This document shows, piece after piece, positions 37,792-49,234 of a stretch of 64,000 nucleotides of DNA. The notes under the pieces are model-generated. The model did not search any database. It had not been told where the DNA came from and saw nothing but the letters and a program-made list of their open reading frames with translations. Within the stretch, counting starts at the first letter, position 1; every line of letters begins with the position of its first letter. The position numbers and the translations under genes were made by a program. The DNA comes from Mycobacterium senriense (GTDB taxonomy: Bacteria; Actinomycetota; Actinomycetes; Mycobacteriales; Mycobacteriaceae): contig NZ_AP024828.1 in the NCBI RefSeq assembly GCF_019668465.1, forward strand, positions 930,001 to 994,000, in the 5' to 3' direction.

Positions 37792-39983
37792 GTCGCTCCG
37801 GCGACGATGCACCCCGCGCCGGGTCGGCCCGTCAGCTCACGCTGACCGCCCGGCTGAACACCTCCGCTGTCGACTCCCGGCGCGGTGTCATTCGTCTGCA
37901 TCCAAATGCCATTGCGGCACTGGGCATTCGAGAATGGGACGCGGTGTCGCTGATCGGGTCGCGCACCACGGCGGCCGTCGCGGGCCTGGCCGGCCCGGAC
38001 ACGCCGGTCAGCACCGTGCTGCTCGACGACGTGACGCTGTCCAACGCGGGACTGCGTGAGGGCACCGCGGTGGTGGTCGGCACGGTCACCGTCTACGGCG
38101 CGCGGTCGGTGACGCTGTCCGGCTCGTCACTGGCGACCCAGTCGGTGCCGCCGGTCACGTTGCGACAAGCCTTGCTGGGCAAGGTGATTACCGTCGGTGA
38201 TGCCGTGTCGCTGCTGCCCCGCGACCTGGGCCCGGGCACCTCGACATCGGAGGCCACCCGCGCGCTGGCCACCGCGGTCGGCATCAGCTGGACCTCGGAG
38301 CTGCTGACAGTCACCGGCGTCGACCCCGAGGGACCGGTGAGCGTGCAGCCCAACTCGCTGGTCACCTGGGGCACCGCCGTGCCGTCAGGCGCCGGGGCCG
38401 CGGCACGGATTTCGGTCGAAGTCGCCAGGCCGGAGATGGTCGTCGAGGAATTGAAAGGCACTCAGCCGCAGGCGGCCAAGCTCGTCGAATGGCTCAAGCT
38501 CGCGCTCGACGAACCGCACCTGCTCAAGGCATTGGGCGCCGGCGCCAACCTCGGCGTGCTGGTGTCGGGCCCGCCCGGCGTGGGCAAGGTGACGCTGGTG
38601 CGCGCGGTGTGCGGCGACCGCAGGCTGGTCACGCTGGACGGCCCGGAGGTCGGCGCGCTGGGTGCCGAGGACCGGCTCAAGGCCGTGGCTTCGGCGGTGC
38701 AGACCGTCCGCGACGGTGGCGGCGTGCTGCTGATCACCGATGTCGACGCCCTGCTGCCGGCCACCGCCGAGCCGGTGGCATCGCTGATCCTGGGCGAACT
38801 GCGTACCGCGGTCGCCAGCCAGGGCGTCGCCCTGATCGCCACCTCCGCGCGACCCGACCAGCTCGACGCCCGGCTGCGGGCCCCCGACCTGTGCGACCGG
38901 GAGCTGGGTCTGCCGCTTCCCGACGCCGGCACCCGCAAAGGGCTGCTGGAGTCGCTGCTGCGCAACGTGCCCACCGGCGGTCTCGATCTCGAAGAGATCG
39001 CTTCGCGTACACCGGGTTTCGTCGTCGCCGACCTGGCCGCACTGGTGCGCGAGGCGGCGCTGCGGGCGGCGTCGCGGGCCAGCTCCGACGGCGGGCCGCC
39101 GAAACTGAAACAGGAGGACCTGGTCGGAGCGCTGACCGTCATCCGGCCACTGTCCCGCTCGGCCGGCGAGGAAGTCAGCGTCGGCAACATCACCCTCGAT
39201 GACGTCGGCGACATGGCCGAGGCCAGACAGGCGCTGACCGAGGCCGTGTTGTGGCCGTTGCAACATCCGGACACGTTCGCCCGGCTGGGTGTCGAGCCGC
39301 CGCGCGGGGTGCTGCTGTACGGGCCACCGGGCTGCGGCAAGACCTTCATCGTGCGGGCGCTGGCCAGCACCGGGCAGCTGTCCGTACACGCCGTCAAGGG
39401 CTCCGAACTGATGGACAAATGGGTCGGCAGCTCGGAAAAGGCTGTGCGCGAACTATTTCGGCGAGCACGGGATTCGGCGCCGTCGCTGGTCTTCCTCGAT
39501 GAGGTCGACGCGCTGGCGCCGCGGCGTGGGCAGAGCTTCGATTCGGGCGTGACCGATCGAGTGGTGGCCGCGCTGCTGACCGAGCTGGACGGTGTCGATC
39601 CGCTGCGCGATGTGGTCGTGCTGGGCGCCACCAACCGGCCGGATCTGATCGATCCCGCGCTGCTGCGTCCGGGCCGGCTGGAGCGACTGGTCTTCGTCGA
39701 GCCCCCGGACGCCGCGGCCCGCGGCGAAATCCTGCGCACGGCAGGCAAGTCCATCCCACTGAGCGCCGACGTCGATCTGGACGAGGTGGCGGCCGGGCTC
39801 GACGGCTACAGCGCCGCCGACTGCGTGGCGCTGCTGCGGGAGGCCGCGCTGACGGCCATGCGCCGATCCATCGACGCCACCGACGTGACGGCCGCCGACC
39901 TCGCGGCGGCATGCGACAACGTCCGCCCCTCTTTGGATCCCATGCAGATCGAGTCGCTACGGGCGTTCGCCAAGGCTCTCTAG
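37788..39983 (+). CDS. Cdc48/p97-like double AAA ATPase (Rv0435c type)
   Basis: This 731-residue protein has a Cdc48 N-terminal double-psi barrel (about 12-190) and two AAA modules. Module D1 has a Walker A of GPPGVGKVTLV at 261-271, with Val after the Lys, and TDVDAL instead of a DE Walker B, so ATP hydrolysis there is doubtful. Module D2 is intact: GPPGCGKT at 512-519, FLDEVDA with Asp571/Glu572, and the second region GATNRPDLIDPALLRPGR. It should unfold or extract proteins. The GTG overlaps pssA. Its C-terminus ends RAFAKAL, a sequence repeated at the end of the next gene. Confidence 0.92.
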   Translation: MSRSGDDAPRAGSARQLTLTARLNTSAVDSRRGVIRLHPNAIAALGIREWDAVSLIGSRTTAAVAGLAGPDTPVSTVLLDDVTLSNAGLREGTAVVVGTVTVYGARSVTLSGSSLATQSVPPVTLRQALLGKVITVGDAVSLLPRDLGPGTSTSEATRALATAVGISWTSELLTVTGVDPEGPVSVQPNSLVTWGTAVPSGAGAAARISVEVARPEMVVEELKGTQPQAAKLVEWLKLALDEPHLLKALGAGANLGVLVSGPPGVGKVTLVRAVCGDRRLVTLDGPEVGALGAEDRLKAVASAVQTVRDGGGVLLITDVDALLPATAEPVASLILGELRTAVASQGVALIATSARPDQLDARLRAPDLCDRELGLPLPDAGTRKGLLESLLRNVPTGGLDLEEIASRTPGFVVADLAALVREAALRAASRASSDGGPPKLKQEDLVGALTVIRPLSRSAGEEVSVGNITLDDVGDMAEARQALTEAVLWPLQHPDTFARLGVEPPRGVLLYGPPGCGKTFIVRALASTGQLSVHAVKGSELMDKWVGSSEKAVRELFRRARDSAPSLVFLDEVDALAPRRGQSFDSGVTDRVVAALLTELDGVDPLRDVVVLGATNRPDLIDPALLRPGRLERLVFVEPPDAAARGEILRTAGKSIPLSADVDLDEVAAGLDGYSAADCVALLREAALTAMRRSIDATDVTAADLAAACDNVRPSLDPMQIESLRAFAKAL

Positions 39984-39984
39984 C
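39959..39984 (+). repeat. 26-bp direct repeat, copy 1 (3' end of AAA ATPase gene)
   Basis: The last codons of the ATPase gene, from ACGGGCGTTCGCCAA to CTCTCTAGC, recur 1526 bp downstream with 24 of 26 bases identical. Both copies encode RAFAKAL followed by a TAG stop. Their placement on either side of the efflux gene looks like the target duplication left by site-specific or homologous insertion into a gene end. Confidence 0.7.
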
Positions 39985-40048
39985 GTGTAACCCCGTCACA
40001 TACATCTTCCCGAGAGGGTGCCAACTCAGGCCCTTCGAGGAGGAATCG

Positions 40049-41509
40049 ATGACCGCCACGCAACCGTCCCCCCGGATCGTCTTGACGACCCCCGTGCGCC
40101 GGACGGGAGCGCTCGCGCGACTGCGCGAGGCCACGCCGACCAGCCGAGTCATGCTGGTGGCCACCATGGTGTCGATGGTCACCTTCCTCGACACCACCGT
40201 CGTGAATCTGGCCCTGCCGGCCACCGCGCGCGATCTCGGCGGCGGCCTGTGCCTGCAGCAATGGATAGTCGATGGCTACCTGCTGGCGCAGGCGGCCATG
40301 ATTCTGCCGGGCGGGTCGATCTCGGACTTGTTCGGGCGTGTGCCGGTAATTCGATTCGGGCTGTTGGCATTTGGGACGGGCTCGGTGCTGGCGGCTACCG
40401 CGGCGACGCCAACCATGCTGATCACCGGCCGCATCATCCAAGGCCTGGGTGCGGCGTTCCTGGTCCCCGGGTCCCTCGCGTTGATCAACTCCACCTTCGA
40501 CCGCGGGGACCGTCCCGCGGCCATCGGGTCCTGGACCGCCTGGACCGGCACCGCGTTCGCGCTCGGACCGCTGCTGGGCGGCTTGGCGGTGGACCTGCTG
40601 AGTTGGCGATGGATTTATATTTTGTCGGCCGTTCCGATGGTCATCGGTTTCGCTTTGACGTACTGGCTGTCCCCCGTGCCTCGGCCCAACCACCACGTCC
40701 CCCTCGACGTTGCAGGGGCTTTCTTCTCGGCTGCCGGGCTGGCCGCCACCGTGTATGCCCTCATCGAATCACGAGAACGCGGCTGGGCCGACCCGCGCGT
40801 CGCCGCGTCGCTGGTGGTGGGAGTGGGCGCACTGGTCGCCTTCGTGGCATGGCAGCGCCGCGCCGCTCACCCCTTGGTGCCGCTCAGTCTTTTCGCCGTC
40901 CGCAACTTCGCGGGCGCCAATGTCAGCACAGCGTTCGTCTACGGCGCCATCGCCATGGGTGCTCTTGCCATCTCGCTCTATACCCAAGAGGTCGCCGGAT
41001 ATTGCGCGACCGTGGCGGGGTTGGCCACGCTGCCCACCCCCGTCATGTCGTTTCTGTTCGCAAAACGCGTCGGCGTCCTGGCCGCGCGGATCGGACCCCG
41101 GGTCTTTCTGACGACCGGCCCGATGCTGGCCGGAGTGGGGCTGCTACTCATTCGTCCCGGGCACGGATTCAACATCGTCACCCACCTGCTGCCCGGGACG
41201 ATCGTGGTGGCCATCGGTTCGGTATTGACCCTTGCGCCGCTGGCGGCGGTGAATTTGTCTTCCGTCGAGCCGGCCCGGAGTGGAGTCGCAGCGGCCATGC
41301 AAAATGCGGTGGGCAGGACGTCGGCGCTGACGTCGGTGGCCTGCGTGGGACTGATCGCCGCCGGGTCGCTGACCGACGCCAGCTTCGCACGGCTACTGCA
41401 GGTCGCCGCCGCGTTGTACTTCATCGCCGCGTTGGTCGGCGGCGTCTTCGTCACCAAGCCGATCAGCTCCACCGAACCCGCGCCACGGGCGTTCGCCAAA
41501 GCTCTGTAG
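40049..41509 (+). CDS. DHA2-family drug efflux transporter (EmrB/LfrA/QacA-like)
   Basis: This is a 486-residue MFS antiporter with about 14 helices. Motif A is GGSISDLFGRVPVIRFG (about residues 88-104), the antiporter motif C lies in GTAFALGPLLGGLA, and the opening helix has FLDTTVVNLALPAT with the membrane aspartate. It probably exports cationic drugs or detergents-like compounds in exchange for protons. GAGGAGGAATCG is a very good ribosome-binding site. Its last seven codons copy the end of the AAA gene. The final 117 bases overlap the convergent TetR gene, likely its regulator. Confidence 0.9.
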   Translation: MTATQPSPRIVLTTPVRRTGALARLREATPTSRVMLVATMVSMVTFLDTTVVNLALPATARDLGGGLCLQQWIVDGYLLAQAAMILPGGSISDLFGRVPVIRFGLLAFGTGSVLAATAATPTMLITGRIIQGLGAAFLVPGSLALINSTFDRGDRPAAIGSWTAWTGTAFALGPLLGGLAVDLLSWRWIYILSAVPMVIGFALTYWLSPVPRPNHHVPLDVAGAFFSAAGLAATVYALIESRERGWADPRVAASLVVGVGALVAFVAWQRRAAHPLVPLSLFAVRNFAGANVSTAFVYGAIAMGALAISLYTQEVAGYCATVAGLATLPTPVMSFLFAKRVGVLAARIGPRVFLTTGPMLAGVGLLLIRPGHGFNIVTHLLPGTIVVAIGSVLTLAPLAAVNLSSVEPARSGVAAAMQNAVGRTSALTSVACVGLIAAGSLTDASFARLLQVAAALYFIAALVGGVFVTKPISSTEPAPRAFAKAL

Positions 41510-42079
41510 CACGGCCAGCGCCGACGCCGCCACGTCCTTTTCCAGCCAGCTCGGCATCGGGTCGTCGTGCGCGTGGCGACGCACCACGGCGTAGGGCAGG
41601 TCAGCCACCGCTCGCGCGACGGCGTCGACGGATCGCGGCTTGTTGTTGCCATACAGTTGACGGGCCAACGCCGAGACGCGCTGCGTCAGTGGGGCGTTCA
41701 TCGCGGCGAGGGTCCGCTGGAATGCCGCGTCGGGCTCGTCGTCGAGCAGGTCGCCGGGCCGGATCGTCAACAACAGCCGGGCATCCTTGGGCAGGGCGCG
41801 CGCGAAGCCGACCGCGGCCACGGCCATCGCCACGGCGGCGGCCGTCGGGGTATCGCCCTCGGCCGCCAGCGCCCGCGCCTGGAAGCGTTCGAGCGCCCGC
41901 AGCCACGCCGCGGTCAGGATGCCGTCGCGGTTGCCGAACCGGTGATACAACGTGCCCGCCGGCGCGCCACTGGCTTTCGCGATGGCGGCCACGCTGGCCG
42001 CGCGCGGGCCGCCGTCGAGCACCAGCGCCCGGGCGGCGTCGAGAATCACATCGGTTTCATGCTTCCGCGGAGGTGCCAC
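41393..42079 (-). CDS. TetR-family regulator overlapping the efflux gene
   Basis: This 228-residue regulator has a TetR DNA-binding domain at about 9-55 (DVILDAARALVLDGG, then IAKASGAPAGTLYHRFGNRDG). The ligand domain ends near residue 190. The last 38 or so residues, from QSFGERPWRGFGG, are the antisense reading of the efflux gene's 3' end and are hydrophilic and unlikely to be functional, as if the original stop had been lost. It starts with GTG, divergent from the SRPBCC-DUF2867 gene, and an inverted repeat overlaps that gene's start. Confidence 0.85.
   Translation of the reverse strand: MAPPRKHETDVILDAARALVLDGGPRAASVAAIAKASGAPAGTLYHRFGNRDGILTAAWLRALERFQARALAAEGDTPTAAAVAMAVAAVGFARALPKDARLLLTIRPGDLLDDEPDAAFQRTLAAMNAPLTQRVSALARQLYGNNKPRSVDAVARAVADLPYAVVRRHAHDDPMPSWLEKDVAASALAVLQSFGERPWRGFGGADRLGDEDAADQRGDEVQRGGDLQ
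41485..41510 (+). repeat. 26-bp direct repeat, copy 2 (3' end of efflux gene)
   Basis: This copy, from ACGGGCGTTCGCCAA to CTCTGTAGC, differs from copy 1 at two positions. It provides the last codons and stop of the efflux gene, and its reverse strand encodes part of the TetR C-terminal extension. The preceding coding sequences of the two genes are unrelated, so the match is not explained by gene paralogy. Confidence 0.7.
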
Positions 42080-42090
42080 GATCTAGTACG

Positions 42091-42110
42091 ATCCTTCTAT
42101 ATGGAACGAT
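42091..42110. promoter_or_regulatory. Candidate TetR operator over a start codon
   Basis: ATCCTTC-TATATG-GAACGAT is an inverted repeat with six of seven arm positions matching. It lies in the short divergent gap and includes the ATG at 42101. A TetR dimer bound here would block the rightward gene and probably its own promoter. Confidence 0.5.
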
Positions 42111-42925
42111 TACCCTATATCGATGAGCATGCCATAACCATCGACGCCGACCGCGAAGACACGTGGGCGGCGCTGCTGCGGGTGATGTGCCGCGACCCGC
42201 ACGACCCGTCGACCGTGCCGTTCGGCTTCGTCCTGGACGAGGCCCGACCACCGGCGCGATTCGCCCTCAAGGGACGCCACTGGTTCGCCGTCTACCGATG
42301 GGTCTTCGAGCTGGACGCGCTCGACGGCTCCGCGCGCACCCGGCTGCGGGCGGCCACCTGGGCGGACTTCCCCGGCATCCACGGTAAGGCCTACCGGGCG
42401 CTGGTGATCGGCACCGGCGGGCACCGCATCGTCGTGCGACGAACCCTGAAAAGTGTTGCGGCAGCGGAGCTCGACGCGCGGGCAGAGACCGGCGAGACCG
42501 CGGCCGATTACGTGGACGTCTTCGAAGTACCGCTCACCGCCGGCGACGCGCGCACGGCCGAACAGGCCTTTCGCGACGGCCTCGGCGACAGGCCGGGCGC
42601 GGGCGGAAAGCTCGTGTTGTGGATCCACCGCAACGTGCTGCGGTTGCACCTGGGGCCGGTCCGCTCCGCCGGGCACCTGATCGGCTGGCCGATAGTCCGG
42701 TCGGATCCCGACGAACTGGTGTTGGCGACGCGCGGGCCGCTGATGCGCGGGGAGCTGACGCTGCGCCGCCAGGACGGCCGACGGGCGGTGCTCACCACCC
42801 GCCTGCACTATCGCCGCCGGATGGCCGCCCGGACGGTCTGGGCGTTGATCGGCCCGCTGCATCGGGTCGTGGCGCCACGGCTGATGCGGCGCAGCGCCCG
42901 TAGCGTTCCGGCGGCGCAAGGCTGA
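42101..42925 (+). CDS. SRPBCC-like plus DUF2867 fusion protein
   Basis: This protein of 274 residues appears to have two related lipid-binding-type halves. Residues about 1-125 look SRPBCC-like (ITIDADREDTWAALLRVM, FALKGRHWFAVYRWVFELD, GTGGHRIVVRRTL). Residues about 140-270 look like DUF2867 (YVDVFEVPLTAGDARTAEQAF, then YRRRMAARTVWALIGPLHRVVAPRL). Proteins of this type bind hydrophobic ligands or act with modifying enzymes. It is divergently controlled by TetR and ends 88 bases before the LuxE-like gene, so it may belong to the same pathway. The domain assignment is by eye. Confidence 0.72.
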   Translation: MERLPYIDEHAITIDADREDTWAALLRVMCRDPHDPSTVPFGFVLDEARPPARFALKGRHWFAVYRWVFELDALDGSARTRLRAATWADFPGIHGKAYRALVIGTGGHRIVVRRTLKSVAAAELDARAETGETAADYVDVFEVPLTAGDARTAEQAFRDGLGDRPGAGGKLVLWIHRNVLRLHLGPVRSAGHLIGWPIVRSDPDELVLATRGPLMRGELTLRRQDGRRAVLTTRLHYRRRMAARTVWALIGPLHRVVAPRLMRRSARSVPAAQG

Positions 42926-42928
42926 TAT

Positions 42929-42961
42929 TTGCAGCTTACTGCAATCTTGCCTATGACTGCA
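42929..42961 (+). promoter_or_regulatory. Candidate operator/promoter of the luxE-luxC-like operon
   Basis: The 88-base gap before the LuxE-like gene is AT-rich. It contains TTGCAG-CTTA-CTGCAA (42929-42944), a perfect 6-bp inverted repeat with 4-base spacer. The half-site ACTGCA then recurs 18 bp further on (42938 and 42956). This is a reasonable site for the TetR protein encoded as the last gene of the same operon. Confidence 0.5.
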
Positions 42962-43013: not shown

Positions 43014-44450
43014 ATGACGGTCACTGAAAACACGGCACTTCCCGTGCACGAGTTCATGAACGACCCGATCGACTTCTTCGGCCAGTCCTACACGCAGATG
43101 CACAGCATCGGCCGCCTCGAGCTGGAAGAGCTGCAGCGCCAGGCCATGCGCGTCCGATTCGCCGAGCATTACCAAAGCATCGAGATCCTGCGCAAGCTGG
43201 CCGATCGACTGGGCATCAGCGCACTCGAACAATTCGATGACGTTGTGCCGCTGCTGTTCTCGCATACATCCTTCAAGTCTTACCCGGCGGCGCTGATCGA
43301 CAGGAAACGCTTCGACCTGATGACCAAGTGGCTGGACAAGCTCACCAGCTACGACCTGACCGGCGTGGACACCACCGGCTGCACCGGGATCGACGACTGG
43401 ATCGACCGTCTCGACGCACAGACTCCGCTGGAGGTCATCACCTCCAGCGGCACCACCGGCACCATCTCGATCCTGCCCAAGGACAAGCGCGGCGCCGAAG
43501 AAGGCATGACGCTGTGGAAGATCTGCCTATTTCAGGCTTTTGGTCACGAACCGACGGAGGCGGAGCTCAACCCGTCGGTCGACGTGGTGTGGCCCAACTT
43601 CGCCAGCGGCAAGCTCGGCCATCTGCGCATCGCCGACATGATCAAGCGGGGTTTCACCGGCGGCGACGAAACCAGATTTCACGCGCTGTATCCCTTTGCG
43701 GTGGACACCGATCTGATGTTCCTGGCCTCCAAGATGCGTGCGGCGGCATCGCGCGGCGAACTCGATCGGCTCGAGATCGATCCGGCGCTCGCCGCCCGCA
43801 AGGACGAGTTCATCGCGATGCAGGCGCGCCAGGCCGAGGACATGGATGCGTTCTTCACCCGCATCACCGACCAGCTGCGCGGCAAGCGGGTCTTCATGCT
43901 GGGCACCTACCACCTGATGTACGACATCGCCAAGGCCGGACTGGACCGCGGCGTGCGCAACGTATTCTCTCCCGACTCGGCGATTCTCACCGGCGGCGGC
44001 ATGAAAGGCGTTGCACTGCCGGAGGATTTCATGGACGTCATCAAAGACTTCCTCGGCGTCGACCGCATCCAGGTCGGTTACGGCTTCTCCGAATCGAGCA
44101 CGTTCCACTGGGGATGCAGCCACGGCCGCTACCACGTTGCGCCGTGGGTCATCCCGTTCGTGCTCGATCCCGACACCAGCGAGCCACTTCCCCGCACCGG
44201 TGTACAGACCGGCCGTGCCGCCGTCTACGACATCCTGCTGCGCGCCCACTGGGGTGGTGTCATCTCCGGCGACGAAGTCACGATCGACTGGGATCTGCAA
44301 TGCCCGTGCGGACAGGCCAGCGTCGCGTTCGAGAAGGACATCATCCGCTACAGCGAGAAGCAGGGCGTTGAGGACGACCGGATCACCTGCGCCGCAACGC
44401 AGGAGGTGCACAACGAAGCGGTCAACTTCATGAAGGGTGTGGAGCTGTGA
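43014..44450 (+). CDS. LuxE-like acyl-activating enzyme (acyl-protein synthetase family)
   Basis: This 478-residue enzyme belongs to the LuxE branch of the adenylate-forming superfamily. SSGTTG at 144-149 is the nucleotide loop, VGYGFSESS at 354-362 matches the A5-type aromatic/acidic motif, and WGGVISGDEVTIDWD at 413-427 includes the ribose-binding Asp420. C-terminal cysteines (Cys430, Cys432, Cys459) could include the acyl-accepting residue known from LuxE. In bioluminescent bacteria LuxE forms acyl-AMP from a fatty acid and hands the acyl group to LuxC. It is longer than luminous LuxE (about 370). ATG at 43014 follows GAGGGATCC. It overlaps the LuxC-like gene by four bases. Confidence 0.85.
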   Translation: MTVTENTALPVHEFMNDPIDFFGQSYTQMHSIGRLELEELQRQAMRVRFAEHYQSIEILRKLADRLGISALEQFDDVVPLLFSHTSFKSYPAALIDRKRFDLMTKWLDKLTSYDLTGVDTTGCTGIDDWIDRLDAQTPLEVITSSGTTGTISILPKDKRGAEEGMTLWKICLFQAFGHEPTEAELNPSVDVVWPNFASGKLGHLRIADMIKRGFTGGDETRFHALYPFAVDTDLMFLASKMRAAASRGELDRLEIDPALAARKDEFIAMQARQAEDMDAFFTRITDQLRGKRVFMLGTYHLMYDIAKAGLDRGVRNVFSPDSAILTGGGMKGVALPEDFMDVIKDFLGVDRIQVGYGFSESSTFHWGCSHGRYHVAPWVIPFVLDPDTSEPLPRTGVQTGRAAVYDILLRAHWGGVISGDEVTIDWDLQCPCGQASVAFEKDIIRYSEKQGVEDDRITCAATQEVHNEAVNFMKGVEL

Positions 44451-45904
44451 TCGCGTACACCGTTCCACTGTTCTTGCGGGGCCGGGTCATCACCGACGAT
44501 CTGGTGCCATTCGAGACCCGCATCGGCGCCTCGCAATTCCAGGCGCCGGACATGAGCAAGTACGTCGAACGCCTGCCGCTGAGCAGCCCCGGCCAGCTGA
44601 GCGACCTCTACGAGCTGAGCTTCGACGAGATCCTCGATGTCCTCGCCGCCCTCGGCAACGCGCTGAACTTCGACACGAACACCCACCTGCAGGAGGCCTA
44701 CGAGGCCTCGCTGGTTGCCAACGTGTTGCCGGCGGAGATGCTCGAGAACAGCTATCGCGTTCTGCCCCCGTTGTTTTCCCGTGGCAACGTCACCGAAATC
44801 GCCGACACCCAGGTGGGGCTCGATTACTTGAACGGTTGGGTGCCGCGCACGTTGAGCGACGGCCGTGAATTGCGGGTGCGCGCGTTCGGGTCGCGCGTGC
44901 TGCACATCCCCGCGGGCAACGGCGGCCTGGTCTCGGCGGTGACCATCCTGCGTTCGGTGATCACCCGCTCCGACGTCATCATCAAGGCGCCGTCCAACGA
45001 TCCCCTCACCGCGATCGCCATCGCCCGCACCCTGGCCGACATCGCACCGGATCACCCGATCACCAGGCATCTGGCCGTTGGCTACTGGAAGGGCGGCGAC
45101 CTGGCTGTCGAGGAAACGCTGTACCAGCCTCATCACATCGAAAAGATCGTGGCCTGGGGCGGATTGGCATCGGTCAGGCACGTGACCCGCTACATTCAGC
45201 CCGGTTTGGAGCTGATCGCGCTGGACCCCAAACGCAGCGCGACCATCATCGGTGCCGAGGCATTCGCCGACGACGAGACCCTGCGCGAGGTGGCCCGCCG
45301 CGCGGCGATCGACATCGGCGTGGCCAACCAGGAAGGCTGTGCCAACGCCCGGGTCATCTACGTGCTCACCGGAACCGACACCGCGGGCCTGGCCAACGCC
45401 AACCGGCTCGGCGAGCTGATCTATCGCGAACTGGTAGGCCTGCCCGCGGTCGTCAGCACCGCGCCGCGCTACCCCAGCCGAGAACTGCTCGACCATGTCG
45501 AGGCCTCGCGAATGGCCGAGGATTTCTATCGCGTCGTCGGCGGCGAGCAACGCGAGGGGGCCATCGTCGTCTCTCAGATCGACGAACCGGTCGATTATTC
45601 GCCGATGTTGGCTGGTCGTGTCGCGAACATCGTCCCGGTAGATAGCATCGACAAGGTGACCGCCGCCGTGAATGCCTACACGCAGACCATCGGCATCTAT
45701 CCCGAATCGCTCAAGCGCCGGCTGCGCGACATCCTGCCGTTGTTCGGCGCGCAGCGACTGACCAGCCTGGGATATGCCTGCAGCGTGGCACTCGCCATGC
45801 CGCAGGACGCCATCGAACCGATCCGTCGGATGTGTAAATGGATCGTCGACGAGGAATGCGATCCGAGCGTCGTCGTCCCGCTGTGGCAGGCCGCGCCCGC
45901 ATGA
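44447..45904 (+). CDS. LuxC-like acyl-CoA/acyl-protein reductase
   Basis: This is a 485-residue protein of the LuxC family, a branch of the aldehyde dehydrogenase superfamily that reduces an activated acyl group to an aldehyde with NADPH. The catalytic cysteine is Cys298 in VANQEGCANARVIY, equivalent to the reactive cysteine of Vibrio LuxC. VLHIPAGNGGLVSAVTILRS and VIIKAPSNDPLTAIAIARTLAD form the cofactor region. It starts with GTG in a GTGA overlap and ends in an ATGA overlap with the SDR gene. LuxE and LuxC side by side constitute a fatty-acid-reductase module without luxAB. The natural chain length or acid is unknown. Confidence 0.88.
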   Translation: MIAYTVPLFLRGRVITDDLVPFETRIGASQFQAPDMSKYVERLPLSSPGQLSDLYELSFDEILDVLAALGNALNFDTNTHLQEAYEASLVANVLPAEMLENSYRVLPPLFSRGNVTEIADTQVGLDYLNGWVPRTLSDGRELRVRAFGSRVLHIPAGNGGLVSAVTILRSVITRSDVIIKAPSNDPLTAIAIARTLADIAPDHPITRHLAVGYWKGGDLAVEETLYQPHHIEKIVAWGGLASVRHVTRYIQPGLELIALDPKRSATIIGAEAFADDETLREVARRAAIDIGVANQEGCANARVIYVLTGTDTAGLANANRLGELIYRELVGLPAVVSTAPRYPSRELLDHVEASRMAEDFYRVVGGEQREGAIVVSQIDEPVDYSPMLAGRVANIVPVDSIDKVTAAVNAYTQTIGIYPESLKRRLRDILPLFGAQRLTSLGYACSVALAMPQDAIEPIRRMCKWIVDEECDPSVVVPLWQAAPA

Positions 45905-46821
45905 CCGACCGTCCCACCGCACTTCGCGTCATCGACGGAATCGACCTGTCCGGCAAGACATGTGTCATCACCGGGGCATCATCGGGGCTGGGCCGCGAGT
46001 CGGCCCGGGCGCTTGCCGCCGCGGGGGCGCACGTCATCCTGACCGCCCGCAATCGCGATGCGCTCGCGGAGACCGCCCAGTGGATCGCGGCCGAGACGCC
46101 CGGCGCCAGGACCTCGGCGGTGCAGCTCGACCTCACCGCGCTGTCCAGTGTTCGCGCGGCGGCAAGCGCGATCGGTGACATCACGCCGGTGGTGCACGTG
46201 CTGATGAACAACGCCGGCGTCATGTTCACCCCATTCGGCCGCACCCGGGACGGCTTCGAATTGCAGATCGGGACAAACCATTTCGGGCACTTCGAACTCA
46301 CCCGGCTGCTCGTCGGAGAGCTCGCCGCGGCAGGCAGCGCGCGGGTGGTCATCCTGTCCTCGGGCGGCCATGTGATGGGTGACGTCGACTTCGGTGATCT
46401 CAACTGGGAGCGCCGTGAGTACGACAAGTTCGTCGCCTACGGCGCCGCCAAGACCGCGAATGTGCTGCACGCGGTGGAGGCCGACCGACGCCTGCGTGAC
46501 TTCGGGATCCGTTGCTATGCCGTGCATCCCGGCACGGTGGCCACCTCGCTCGCGCGGTACATGTCTCGCGAGGACTTCTCGCAGCTGCGTAAGTTCGCCG
46601 CCGAAAACAGCCCCGAGCCCTCCGACGGCTTCCTCGACTTCGTCATGCCCGAACAAGGCGCGGCCACCCAGGTGTGGGCCGCCGTCAGTCCCGAACTGGC
46701 CGCCCGCGGCGGCCTCTACCTGGAAGACTGCGCAGTCAGCGCGGCGGCACCGCACGCTTGCGACGAGCGGCGCGCCGCCGAACTGTGGGACCTCTCCGAG
46801 AAGCTCTGTGCCACAGCATGA
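45901..46821 (+). CDS. Short-chain dehydrogenase/reductase of the lux-like operon
   Basis: This is a 306-residue retinol-dehydrogenase/WWOX-type SDR: ITGASSGLGRESA near residue 22, MNNAGVMFTPFG near 102, ILSSGGHVMGDVDF, and catalytic YGAAK near 180. It begins in a four-base overlap with the LuxC-like gene. The simplest role is to reduce the aldehyde from LuxC to an alcohol, or to oxidise a hydroxyl on the substrate acid. It is similar in style but clearly distinct from the two paralogous SDRs at 28.2 and 32.8 kb. Confidence 0.87.
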   Translation: MTDRPTALRVIDGIDLSGKTCVITGASSGLGRESARALAAAGAHVILTARNRDALAETAQWIAAETPGARTSAVQLDLTALSSVRAAASAIGDITPVVHVLMNNAGVMFTPFGRTRDGFELQIGTNHFGHFELTRLLVGELAAAGSARVVILSSGGHVMGDVDFGDLNWERREYDKFVAYGAAKTANVLHAVEADRRLRDFGIRCYAVHPGTVATSLARYMSREDFSQLRKFAAENSPEPSDGFLDFVMPEQGAATQVWAAVSPELAARGGLYLEDCAVSAAAPHACDERRAAELWDLSEKLCATA

Positions 46822-47402
46822 GTAGGGTGGAGCGACGCAAACGCGAGGTGCGGGAGCGGATTCTGACGGCCGCCTTCGACCTGTTTTTGGATCACGGTGT
46901 CGGGGCCACCACCATCGAGGAGATCTGCGAACGCGCCGACGTGGCGAACCGAACGTTTTTCAACCATTTCGCCACCCGGCAGGACATGGTCCGCGCCCTC
47001 GCCGAGCAGCGGCTGGTCAACCTGCACCACGTCGTGTTCGATCGCGCCGACGAGGCGATCCCGGCGCGGCTTGTGGGTGTGTTCGACGACATCGCCGCGA
47101 CGTTGGCCGGATCGGGCGACACCTACCGCGAGTTGATCGGGGAAATGCTGGCCACCAGTGGCTACGGCATCCAGCGCGGATCCAACCTGCACGACACGTT
47201 TGTCGAGCTGGTCAAGGAGGGGGTGGCGCGCGGTGAGGTGAGTCCGCGCCACGACGCACAAACCTTGGCGGACATCATGGTTGGCGCCCTGTCCGGGGGC
47301 ATCCTCAACTGGACGCTGGACCGGACCTATTCGCTCGATACCAACCTGCACAACCTCGGTGCCGCATTGGCCGGGTTGCTCACCGCCGACGCCGGTTCAT
47401 AG
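46818..47402 (+). CDS. TetR-family regulator, last gene of the lux-like operon
   Basis: This is a 194-residue TetR protein with SRVERRKREVRERILTAAFD and the recognition segment ICERADVANRTFFNHFATRQD. The ligand domain contains GEMLATSGYGIQRGSN. It overlaps the SDR gene by four bases, so regulator and enzymes are made together, consistent with autoregulation through the repeat upstream of the LuxE-like gene. Its inducer might be the substrate acid or its CoA ester. It ends in a six-base overlap with the convergent enoyl-CoA hydratase gene. Confidence 0.88.
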   Translation: MSRVERRKREVRERILTAAFDLFLDHGVGATTIEEICERADVANRTFFNHFATRQDMVRALAEQRLVNLHHVVFDRADEAIPARLVGVFDDIAATLAGSGDTYRELIGEMLATSGYGIQRGSNLHDTFVELVKEGVARGEVSPRHDAQTLADIMVGALSGGILNWTLDRTYSLDTNLHNLGAALAGLLTADAGS

Positions 47403-48215
47403 CTCGGGAAGCGGCGACCAGTCCCGGGACAGCTGTGCGGTGAAGCGCGGCGCACGACGATCGAGGAATGCGGCGACGCCCTCGGCGGCATCGGCGCCGC
47501 CCATCACCCGCTCGTGCAGCAGGGTTTCCAGCGCGGCGACCTGTCGCGGCGTGTAGCGATTGATCGCGCTGTCCCACAGCAGGCGTTTGCACAGCGCCGC
47601 CGACATCGGCGCCACGTTGACCGCGATGTCGCGGGCGACGGTCAGCGCATGGTCGAGCACCCGCTCGGCGGGCAACGCGCAGTTGGCGACACCGAGCGCG
47701 GCGGCCTCGGCACCGCCGAACGTGCGCCCGGTGAGCAGGATGTCGGCGGCCACCCCCAGAGTGGTCAACTGGGTCAGCGTCCAGTGCGACATGCAGTCGG
47801 GCAGCACACCCCGGCGGACCTGCACCACACCGTATTTCGCGTCCTCGGCGACGATGCGGATGTCGGCCTGCAGCGCGATGGTCAGCCCGATGCCGATGGC
47901 GTGGCCATTGATCGCGGCGATCACCGGTTTACGCAACTCGAACGCCGCCGGGGTGATCGGCGAGGCCGAGAACGTGCCGTCGCCCGCGGGTGCGTCGAAC
48001 GGGCTTGCGTCGCCGGAGAAATCGGCACCGGCGCAAAAGGCGCGCCCGGCGCCGGTCAGGACGATGGCCCGGACGTCGTCGTCCCCGTCACAATCCCGGT
48101 ACGCGCGGCCCAGCAGCTCGCCCATCTCGGCGGTGTAGGCGTTGAGACGCTCGGGCCGATTGAGTGTGAGTACCGCTACGCCCGAATCGATTTCGACGGT
48201 CAGGTCGGTGCTCAT
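47397..48215 (-). CDS. Enoyl-CoA hydratase/isomerase family protein
   Basis: This is a 272-residue crotonase. LTGAGRAFCAGADFSGD (about residues 55-71) and INGHAIGIGLTIALQADIRI (about 104-123) form the oxyanion hole. The GVLPD region lacks the second usual catalytic glutamate, so an isomerase or hydrolase reaction is as likely as hydration. ATG at 48215 overlaps the upstream oxidoreductase stop by four bases. It faces the lux-like operon and may act on the CoA ester of the same compound. Confidence 0.87.
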   Translation of the reverse strand: MSTDLTVEIDSGVAVLTLNRPERLNAYTAEMGELLGRAYRDCDGDDDVRAIVLTGAGRAFCAGADFSGDASPFDAPAGDGTFSASPITPAAFELRKPVIAAINGHAIGIGLTIALQADIRIVAEDAKYGVVQVRRGVLPDCMSHWTLTQLTTLGVAADILLTGRTFGGAEAAALGVANCALPAERVLDHALTVARDIAVNVAPMSAALCKRLLWDSAINRYTPRQVAALETLLHERVMGGADAAEGVAAFLDRRAPRFTAQLSRDWSPLPEL

Positions 48216-49234
48216 GGCAGCGCGGGCACCCGGTGCAGGGCACCGATCATGTCGGCAACCTCCGCAGGGCGCGGGGTGTAGCCCGGAAAGTAACAGCACA
48301 CCTCGTCGGCGTGCTCGCCGAACCGGGCGGCGATCTGCTCAGCACACTGCTCGGGCGTTCCCACGATGCCGATCCGAGCCACCATCTCGTCGGTGATCAG
48401 CCCGCGCATCTCGGTGAAGCGGCCCTGCTTGGACAGCGCGTTGAGCTCGGGCTGGACGTCGTCCCAACCCTCGACCTGCAGCACGGGCAGGTAGGCCGGC
48501 GTGGAGCCGTAAAACGCGATGAGGGAGGCCACCCCGTTGATCGCGGTCGCCAGGTCGGCCTCGTCGCGACCGACGGCAACCATGGCCTGGGCGACGATCT
48601 GAAACTCGCTCAACGTCCGCCCCGAGCGGCGCAGCCCCTCACCGATGGCGGGCAGGGTGCGCTCGGCGAAGTGACGGGCACTGTTGAACGGCATCACCAA
48701 CAGGCCGTCGGCGACCTCGGCGGCGGTGCGCGTCATCACCGGACCCAACGCACCCAGCAGCACCGGCGGCGGTCCGAACGGGTTGGGGCCGGGATTGAAG
48801 TTGGGCGCCATGATGGTGTGCGTGTAGAACTCGCCGCGGAAGTCCAAGCGGGCCTTGCCTTCCCACGCGGCAAAGATCGCCTTGATCGCGGCGATGGCTT
48901 CGGCCATCCGCGGCGCGGGCCTGTCCCAGCTGCTGCCGTAACGCTTCTCGATGTGCACCTTGATCTGCGAGCCGAGGCCGAGCCGGAACCGGCCGCCGCT
49001 GTAGAGCTGCAGGTCGTAGGCCGAGTGCGCCATGTGTAGCGGGCTGCGCGGCGGGGCGATCGCCACGTTGGTCATCAGGTCCAGGCCGGTCGTCCCGGCG
49101 GCGATCAACAGCGGGAAGAAGACGTCGTGCTGGCCCTCGAAGGTGAACAATCCGTCCGCGCCCGTCGCGGCGATCTCGGCGGCACTCGCCGCCGCCTGCG
49201 CCGGGGAACCGCTGACCTGAAGCTGTACCTTCAT
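48212..49234 (-). CDS. Luciferase-like F420-dependent oxidoreductase
   Basis: This is a 340-residue TIM-barrel protein of the bacterial-luciferase-like monooxygenase superfamily. GADGLFTFEGQHDVFFPLLIAA, ASTTGLDL-type strand spacing (AAGTTGLDLMTNVAIAPPRSP) and RFRLGLGSQIKVHIEKRYG fit the mycobacterial F420-dependent subgroup. It is not a close LuxA or LuxB, so light emission is not implied. AAGGACGGGCGC precedes the ATG. It lies 22 bases after the conserved Lon-N gene on the same strand and is translated with the crotonase. It could oxidise or dehydrogenate the acid used by the facing operon. Confidence 0.85.
   Translation of the reverse strand: MKVQLQVSGSPAQAAASAAEIAATGADGLFTFEGQHDVFFPLLIAAGTTGLDLMTNVAIAPPRSPLHMAHSAYDLQLYSGGRFRLGLGSQIKVHIEKRYGSSWDRPAPRMAEAIAAIKAIFAAWEGKARLDFRGEFYTHTIMAPNFNPGPNPFGPPPVLLGALGPVMTRTAAEVADGLLVMPFNSARHFAERTLPAIGEGLRRSGRTLSEFQIVAQAMVAVGRDEADLATAINGVASLIAFYGSTPAYLPVLQVEGWDDVQPELNALSKQGRFTEMRGLITDEMVARIGIVGTPEQCAEQIAARFGEHADEVCCYFPGYTPRPAEVADMIGALHRVPALP

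Follow-up and report, generated by a model that had tools for sequence, protein, structure and literature searches.

A mycobacterial operon with relatives of LuxE and LuxC and a linked luciferase-family gene: a probable light-independent acid reductase

Background

LuxC and LuxE are known for feeding bacterial luciferase. The question raised by the locus described here is what relatives of these proteins would do in a Mycobacterium. The genes for them lie in the window, the whole 64,000 nucleotide stretch analysed (positions 930,001–994,000 of NZ_AP024828.1, Mycobacterium senriense), and head a group of four forward strand genes at window positions 43014–47402. An earlier note, made from the sequence alone, had read this group as a LuxE/LuxC fatty acid reductase-like operon. 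The operon probably encodes an acid reductase that is related to LuxC-LuxE but independent of light, with an acyl relay between its first two proteins, in a TetR-regulated and probably catabolic pathway. The chief additions to that earlier description are the linkage to a luciferase-family gene in mycobacteria and to a zinc-dehydrogenase gene elsewhere.

Results

Operon structure

The first gene encodes a LuxE-like adenylating enzyme with a PaaK-type core and a C-terminal Cys459 (43014–44450, 478 aa), and the second a LuxC-type acyl reductase with active-site Cys298 (44447–45904, 485 aa). These are followed by a PRK06196-like short-chain dehydrogenase/reductase (SDR; 45901–46821; PF00106, 107.2 bits; NF004845, 316.8 bits, below its cut-off of 414) and, as the final gene, a TetR-family regulator (46818–47402; PF00440, 47.5 bits). 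The three consecutive four-base overlaps that had been noted earlier are all present: GTGA at 44447–44450, ATGA at 45901–45904 and ATGA at 46818–46821. All four frames have codon-position GC typical of coding sequence, and the overlap of the LuxE stop with the LuxC start recurs in 27 out of 35 related loci. Given these features and the pairing of LuxE with LuxC described below, the arrangement is more than chance. None of the four genes is luxA, luxB or luxD.

The LuxC-type protein

The LuxC label is right. The protein matches the LuxC profile PF05893 at 113.8 bits (curated cut-off 21) over profile positions 3–401 of 401. Its fold is nearer to LuxC than to ordinary aldehyde dehydrogenases and the catalytic Cys is aligned, being C298 within the NQEGCANAR motif. 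Profile, fold and active-site residue thus bear out the original description of a LuxC-like reductase. Nearness to the luminous proteins was judged by NCBI equivalog scores, and the luminous LuxC equivalog NF052251 is not reached (125.7 bits, cut-off 750).

In a LuxC tree of 88 rows, the window protein clusters with those of Nocardia, Nocardioides and Marmoricola, in an actinobacterial group of 28 rows (support 100/97). The sister of this group contains Myxococcota, gammaproteobacteria and others, with weak group support (83/41). The same genome holds a second, separate LuxE-LuxC pair, distant from that of the window (locus L007, 10441–14517; G000:C1, 1988.4–1992.5 kb), with a LuxC that falls in another branch; by this tree the two pairs would have diverged long ago.

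The LuxE-like protein

The SSGTTG (residues 144–149) and GYGFSES motifs attributed to the first protein are present. Its predicted model superposes on the solved LuxE structure (7xc6) at 1.8 Å over 117 of the 118 resolved LuxE residues. It also has the adenylating core fold of PaaK-type CoA ligases, with which it aligns over more residues than with LuxE. The model has no counterpart to about the last 100 residues of PaaK, the alignments stopping at chain residue 331–334 of 422–433, and ends some 28 residues past the aligned core in a tail with a predicted local distance difference test score of 48–55. The PaaK-type C-terminal AMP-binding domain has no Pfam match in the protein at E 0.001. The luminous LuxE equivalog NF052244 is not reached (18.9 bits, cut-off 550).

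Residues G146, T147, G149, Y356, E360, D420, R445 and Cys459 are invariant in all 35 aligned LuxE-like proteins, the final Cys being 12–29 residues from the C terminus. In luminous LuxE, the acylated Cys is close to the C terminus. A nearly invariant set of C368, H374, C430 and C432 resembles a metal site; the aligned Photobacterium LuxE has no Cys at the position of C368. The expectation that this protein is about 100 residues longer than luminous LuxE is borne out, at 478 aa versus 373 for the LuxE chain of 7xc6.

Distribution and gene pairing

The host genome is that of a Mycobacterium (5.83 Mb), and M. colombiense, at 95–96% identity, is among the best named matches to its LuxE. Across the genus LuxE relatives are not rare: 57 of 396 genomes contain one at E 1e-20, and they form four groups by identity (76–96%, 59–64%, approximately 37–45% and approximately 28–38%, the last partly made up of partial matches). 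At the level of the class, a match to the profile at E 1e-30 is found in 27 of 394 genomes. When one genome per species was scanned with a single peptide pattern, 437 loci had a relative; the 80 of these that were kept include Pseudomonas, Cupriavidus, Paraburkholderia, Variovorax, sphingomonads, Halieaceae, Myxococcota, Nocardia and Nocardioides. Of 80 named loci, 76 have LuxC directly after LuxE in the same orientation, and a LuxC match is present somewhere in every one.

Apparent splitting into several frames, through decay or assembly faults, is seen for LuxC in M. genavense L112 and in L063, and for LuxE in L033 and L035 (seemingly the same contig as L116). Sphingobium Tom* plasmids (L168 and related) carry a LuxE-LuxC pair (33% LuxE identity) amid choline-dehydrogenase-like and FAD-binding genes. 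A study of isolates that degrade alpha-tomatine names TomTYG72, TomTYG74 and TomMM15 (PMC10653915). Steroid or tomatine degradation is not claimed as the pathway, since the main text of that study never mentions LuxC, LuxE or acyl-CoA reductase.

Linkage to a luciferase-family gene

Convergent with the operon are an enoyl-CoA hydratase/isomerase-family gene (ECH; 47397–48215, reverse strand; PF00378, 163.9 bits; start read from the open reading frame) and, upstream of it on that strand, a predicted F420-dependent luciferase-family oxidoreductase (48212–49234, reverse strand; PF00296; TIGR03617, 472.1 bits, cut-off 278.15). The end of the ECH gene reaches 6 bases into the TetR gene and, given an ATG start at 48215, its frame overlaps the luciferase-family stop by 4 bases. 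The remark in the earlier note that luxAB are absent is correct for luxAB proper, no luxA/luxB pair being found among the 9 proteins scanned around the operon, but it misses this one luciferase-family gene, of the TIGR03617 F420 subfamily, second downstream of the operon. Only 2 of the 50 luciferase-family matches in the genome pass the TIGR03617 cut-off, and this gene is one of them.

The two nearest LuxE groups comprise 28 full-length mycobacterial loci besides the window, of which 20 were fetched. A close relative of the luciferase-family protein (67–98%) is encoded in the fetched stretch around LuxE-LuxC in 17 of the 20; it was not found in the fetched stretches of L043, L044 and L050. By coordinates, the 8 unfetched loci have the gene within 4 kb of LuxE in five cases, the two genes on different contigs in two, and no such gene in one. 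It is convergent and downstream of the operon in the window and its nearest kin, directly 5' of LuxE in L049, L052 and L053, overlapping LuxE by 4 bases of the called frames in L054, and separated from it by one or two genes in L046 and L047. Chance linkage was considered and judged unlikely, the next-best luciferase-family protein of the same genome being 33% identical versus 67–98% for those that are linked. Of the 28 genomes that carry LuxE of the two nearest groups, 3 of them as broken or split copies, 24 have an orthologue (E ≤ 1e-150), versus 59 of 368 others (p 2.8e-14, a value overstated by the relatedness of the genomes).

The second pair in the genome is preceded by a luciferase-family gene of a different kind (TIGR03857, 359 bits, cut-off 218), and is followed by a gene with no Pfam match and then an SDR. 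In this lineage the linkage is weaker: a relative of the L007 protein (38–100%) is found in 8 of 11 loci, such genes being common and only that of L007 itself having been scored as TIGR03857. In the most distant mycobacterial LuxE group, a comparable gene is present in 2 of 10 loci (L068 and L069).

A similar set of luciferase-family gene, LuxE and LuxC is found on M. avium plasmid pP7a (L167, NZ_CP076857.1 253085–278467), which is 396 kb and typed as mobilizable. There the luciferase-family protein is 98% identical and its gene overlaps LuxE by 4 bases, in the annotated order luciferase-family protein, hypothetical protein, acyl-CoA reductase, phosphotransferase and SDR. The phosphotransferase has the place occupied in L007 by the gene without a Pfam match. 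Surrounding genes encode P450, limonene-epoxide-hydrolase-family, nitronate monooxygenase and mycofactocin-coupled SDR proteins.

Neighbouring genes

Neighbours were counted at E 1e-15 with one query per family (two for acyl-CoA dehydrogenase, the larger count being given; sulfatases by the record's own annotation), and the counts have no random-locus control. The 30 named mycobacterial loci contain SDR (18), TetR (18), luciferase-family (17), ECH (16), SMP-30 lactonase (7), P450 (6), acyl-CoA dehydrogenase (5), CoA ligase (5) and KshA-like Rieske oxygenase (3) genes. The 50 non-mycobacterial loci contain zinc-dependent alcohol dehydrogenase (23), CoA ligase (17), acyl-CoA dehydrogenase (16), thiolase (14), ECH (11), P450 (8), alkyl sulfatase (7), SDR (7), MMPL (6), TetR (5), SMP-30 (3) and sulfatase (2) genes. 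In 20 of these 50, the zinc-dependent dehydrogenase starts 1.5–1.63 kb past the end of LuxE, just after LuxC. Each catabolic-type neighbour is present in a minority of loci, except for ECH in mycobacteria. This pattern suggests one acid/aldehyde module with interchangeable alcohol/aldehyde oxidoreductases, mostly placed in catabolic pathways.

A candidate operator

Between the end of the DUF2867 frame and the LuxE start are 88 bases, within which is a palindrome, TTGCAGCTTACTGCAA (42929–42944), 70–85 bp 5' of the LuxE start. Genes for an MFS efflux-type protein, a divergent TetR and the DUF2867 protein occupy 39911–42925. Of 36 loci examined, 8, that of the window included, have the pattern [TG]TGCAN4ACTGCA 5' of LuxE. 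All 8 belong to the 9 that were examined from the nearest group (76–100% LuxE identity); in the ninth, L046, it was not seen 5' of LuxE, the assigned start being inside the preceding gene. The pattern occurs once in the window. Allowing up to two mismatches, the palindrome has three places in the window versus 1.43 expected, the copy at 42929–42944 being exact, and 17 of 100 shuffles reach three. With up to one mismatch there is one place in the 5.83 Mb, versus two for a reversed control pattern. Taken alone, the rarity of the palindrome lacks significance. A different palindrome, AAAACA...TGTTTT, is present in two loci of the next LuxE group. The obvious candidate for binding the window's palindrome is the operon's own TetR.

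Discussion

Proposed function

From the gene set and its overlaps, the predicted folds, the conserved catalytic-type residues and the linkage, all observed or computed here, we infer the following scheme, including its chemical steps, direction, cofactors, substrate, co-translation and regulation. The LuxE-like protein would adenylate a carboxylic acid using ATP and place the acyl group on its C-terminal Cys459, from which it would pass to Cys298 of LuxC. LuxC would then reduce the thioester to an aldehyde with NAD(P)H. The SDR, presumably co-translated, would interconvert the aldehyde and a related alcohol or ketone, as would the adjacent F420-type luciferase-family enzyme in mycobacteria. 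A sequence of acid to aldehyde to alcohol through the operon enzymes is plausible. All this would take place under TetR control, in a pathway that is probably catabolic, acts on a cyclic or lipid-like substrate and also has CoA thioester intermediates.

This reading draws on the LuxE-LuxC pairing, the LuxC fold and Cys298, the invariant LuxE-like residues, the catabolic neighbours and the co-occurrence of the luciferase-family gene with LuxE. In addition, an oxidoreductase suited to the aldehyde/alcohol step recurs: the SDR in the window, the luciferase-family enzyme in mycobacteria and the zinc-dependent dehydrogenase elsewhere.

Several observations weigh against it, beginning with the LuxE-like protein. 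This does not reach the curated cut-off of the LuxE profile PF04443 (20.1 bits versus 24.9), and at E ≤ 0.001 only 8 of the 35 aligned members match PF04443 (best 4.6e-8), with 27 that do not. The 50 best Foldseek rows for the model are PaaK-type and other adenylating enzymes, with no LuxE, which appeared only in a second structural look. Cys459 is not aligned to the acylated Cys of luminous LuxE, as the profile match ends at chain residue 330. The activating enzyme is LuxE only in the wide sense, a distant relative. Placement of the first protein among PaaK/ligase families had been named at the outset as a result that would overturn the LuxE idea, and what was found goes halfway towards it.

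The resemblance to PaaK leads to another explanation, in which the first gene encodes an ordinary PaaK-type acyl-CoA ligase and LuxC reduces free CoA thioesters, with no acyl transfer from protein to protein. The greater coverage of the PaaK-type core is in its favour, but the missing counterpart to the last PaaK residues, the invariant tail Cys and the near-constant pairing with LuxC make this improbable.

The luciferase-family linkage has its own counter-evidence. No such gene is found in the 50 non-mycobacterial locus stretches at E 1e-15; L123 has one weak 25% match. Furthermore, 15 luciferase-family loci were fetched whose genomes lack LuxE of the two nearest groups (LuxE is present in a sixteenth, L215), and nine of the 15 share the flanks of the window. 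In L200, L201, L204 and L205, DUF2867 is followed directly by ECH and the luciferase-family gene; in L202, L203, L206, L207 and L208 the order is DUF2867 (unmatched in L206), SDR, ECH and luciferase-family gene. All nine keep the luciferase-family gene and ECH (partial in L204) and five a full-length SDR, L200 retaining two short SDR pieces. In none of the nine is there a DNA match for LuxE, LuxC or TetR at E 1e-6. Since they are retained in syntenic loci lacking the pair, the luciferase-family gene, ECH and SDR are independent of LuxE-LuxC. In the six more distant loci (L209–L214), LuxE, LuxC and SDR are unmatched, the matches being limited to the luciferase-family gene and, in two, ECH. Loss of the pair from the syntenic loci seems likelier than gain, because Nocardioides and M. 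septicum share LuxE-LuxC-SDR together with a TetR of the same cluster.

An ATP-spending reduction is also odd within a degradative pathway. In the opposite, oxidative direction, the SDR, zinc-dependent dehydrogenase or F420-dependent enzyme would oxidise an alcohol, LuxC would turn the resulting aldehyde into an acyl-thioester, and the acyl group would be handed by the LuxE-like protein to CoA for beta-oxidation. The catabolic type of the neighbours favours this, as do the alkyl sulfatases (7 of the 50 non-mycobacterial loci) and sulfatases (2 of 50, and also a Caballeronia plasmid), which would release an alcohol. F420-dependent alcohol dehydrogenases of the luciferase family, Adf and FGD2, are described (PMC6279831). 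However, an adenylating enzyme would be superfluous, yet its adenylation-type residues are invariant, and separate CoA ligases are nearby in 17 of the 50 non-mycobacterial loci. The oxidative direction is considered unlikely.

The earlier note had proposed synthesis of fatty alcohols or wax precursors. The enzyme logic of acid to aldehyde to alcohol with an SDR fits, and the Caballeronia plasmid has a wax ester synthase and a phasin 7–9 kb past LuxC. No annotated neighbour in the mycobacterial representatives is of that kind, although many neighbours are left unannotated; the distribution is patchy (57 of 396 genomes), and ring-oxidising neighbour types (P450, KshA-like Rieske) point elsewhere. 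With recurring neighbours that are mostly of catabolic kinds, the proposal finds little support; this is the less likely setting, and a very improbable one.

Significance

If the preferred reading of a light-independent acid reductase is correct, a subfamily that is linked to other oxidoreductases and present in mycobacteria, Pseudomonas, Burkholderiales, sphingomonads and Myxococcota would reveal a role of LuxC-LuxE without light, and possibly a carboxylate-reducing enzyme beside the carboxylic acid reductase (CAR) type. It would also give a handle on the TIGR03617 luciferase-family enzyme; we know of no member of TIGR03617 with an assigned substrate. A more tentative extension, which we regard as doubtful, is a 'dark lux' module in which the mycobacterial F420-dependent enzyme acts on the aldehyde or alcohol of LuxC-LuxE itself. 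If so, a luciferase fold would be associated with a LuxC-LuxE acid reductase outside bioluminescence too, and this may have come about more than once, given that TIGR03617 and TIGR03857 enzymes adjoin different LuxE-LuxC lineages in the one genome.

Comparison with known systems

No study of a mycobacterial LuxC-LuxE pair was found in open-licence papers, which is weak evidence; the nearest is M. marinum mel2. In the parts of that work considered, the authors call the locus lux-like, liken MelK to LuxC by domain and report no clear LuxE homologue (PMC1793995). Like the window, mel2 is a mycobacterial locus with a luciferase-family gene; unlike it, as far as its description goes, the window encodes both a LuxE-like protein and a LuxC of PF05893. 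V. cholerae RfbN and R. anatipestifer AS87_03730 are likewise LuxE relatives serving non-light roles, but in an O-antigen or unknown context, with no catabolic or F420-dependent luciferase-family linkage in the portion of the account drawn on here (PMC4772473).

Compared with the PaaK-type AMP-forming ligases PaaK1, BT_0428 and NatL2, the window enzyme has its C-terminal domain replaced by the short, low-confidence tail carrying Cys459, and is coupled to a LuxC. The closest comparison is with the LuxC-LuxE fatty acid reductase of Photobacterium phosphoreum (7xc6), with which the window proteins share the LuxC fold, the aligned Cys and a superposing adenylating partner. They differ from it in falling far under both luminous equivalog cut-offs, in the additional 105 residues of the LuxE-like protein, and in a Cys/His set that is not kept at C368 in the aligned LuxE. 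Where luminous systems have luxA, luxB and luxD, the four genes of this operon pair the LuxE and LuxC relatives with an SDR and a TetR regulator.

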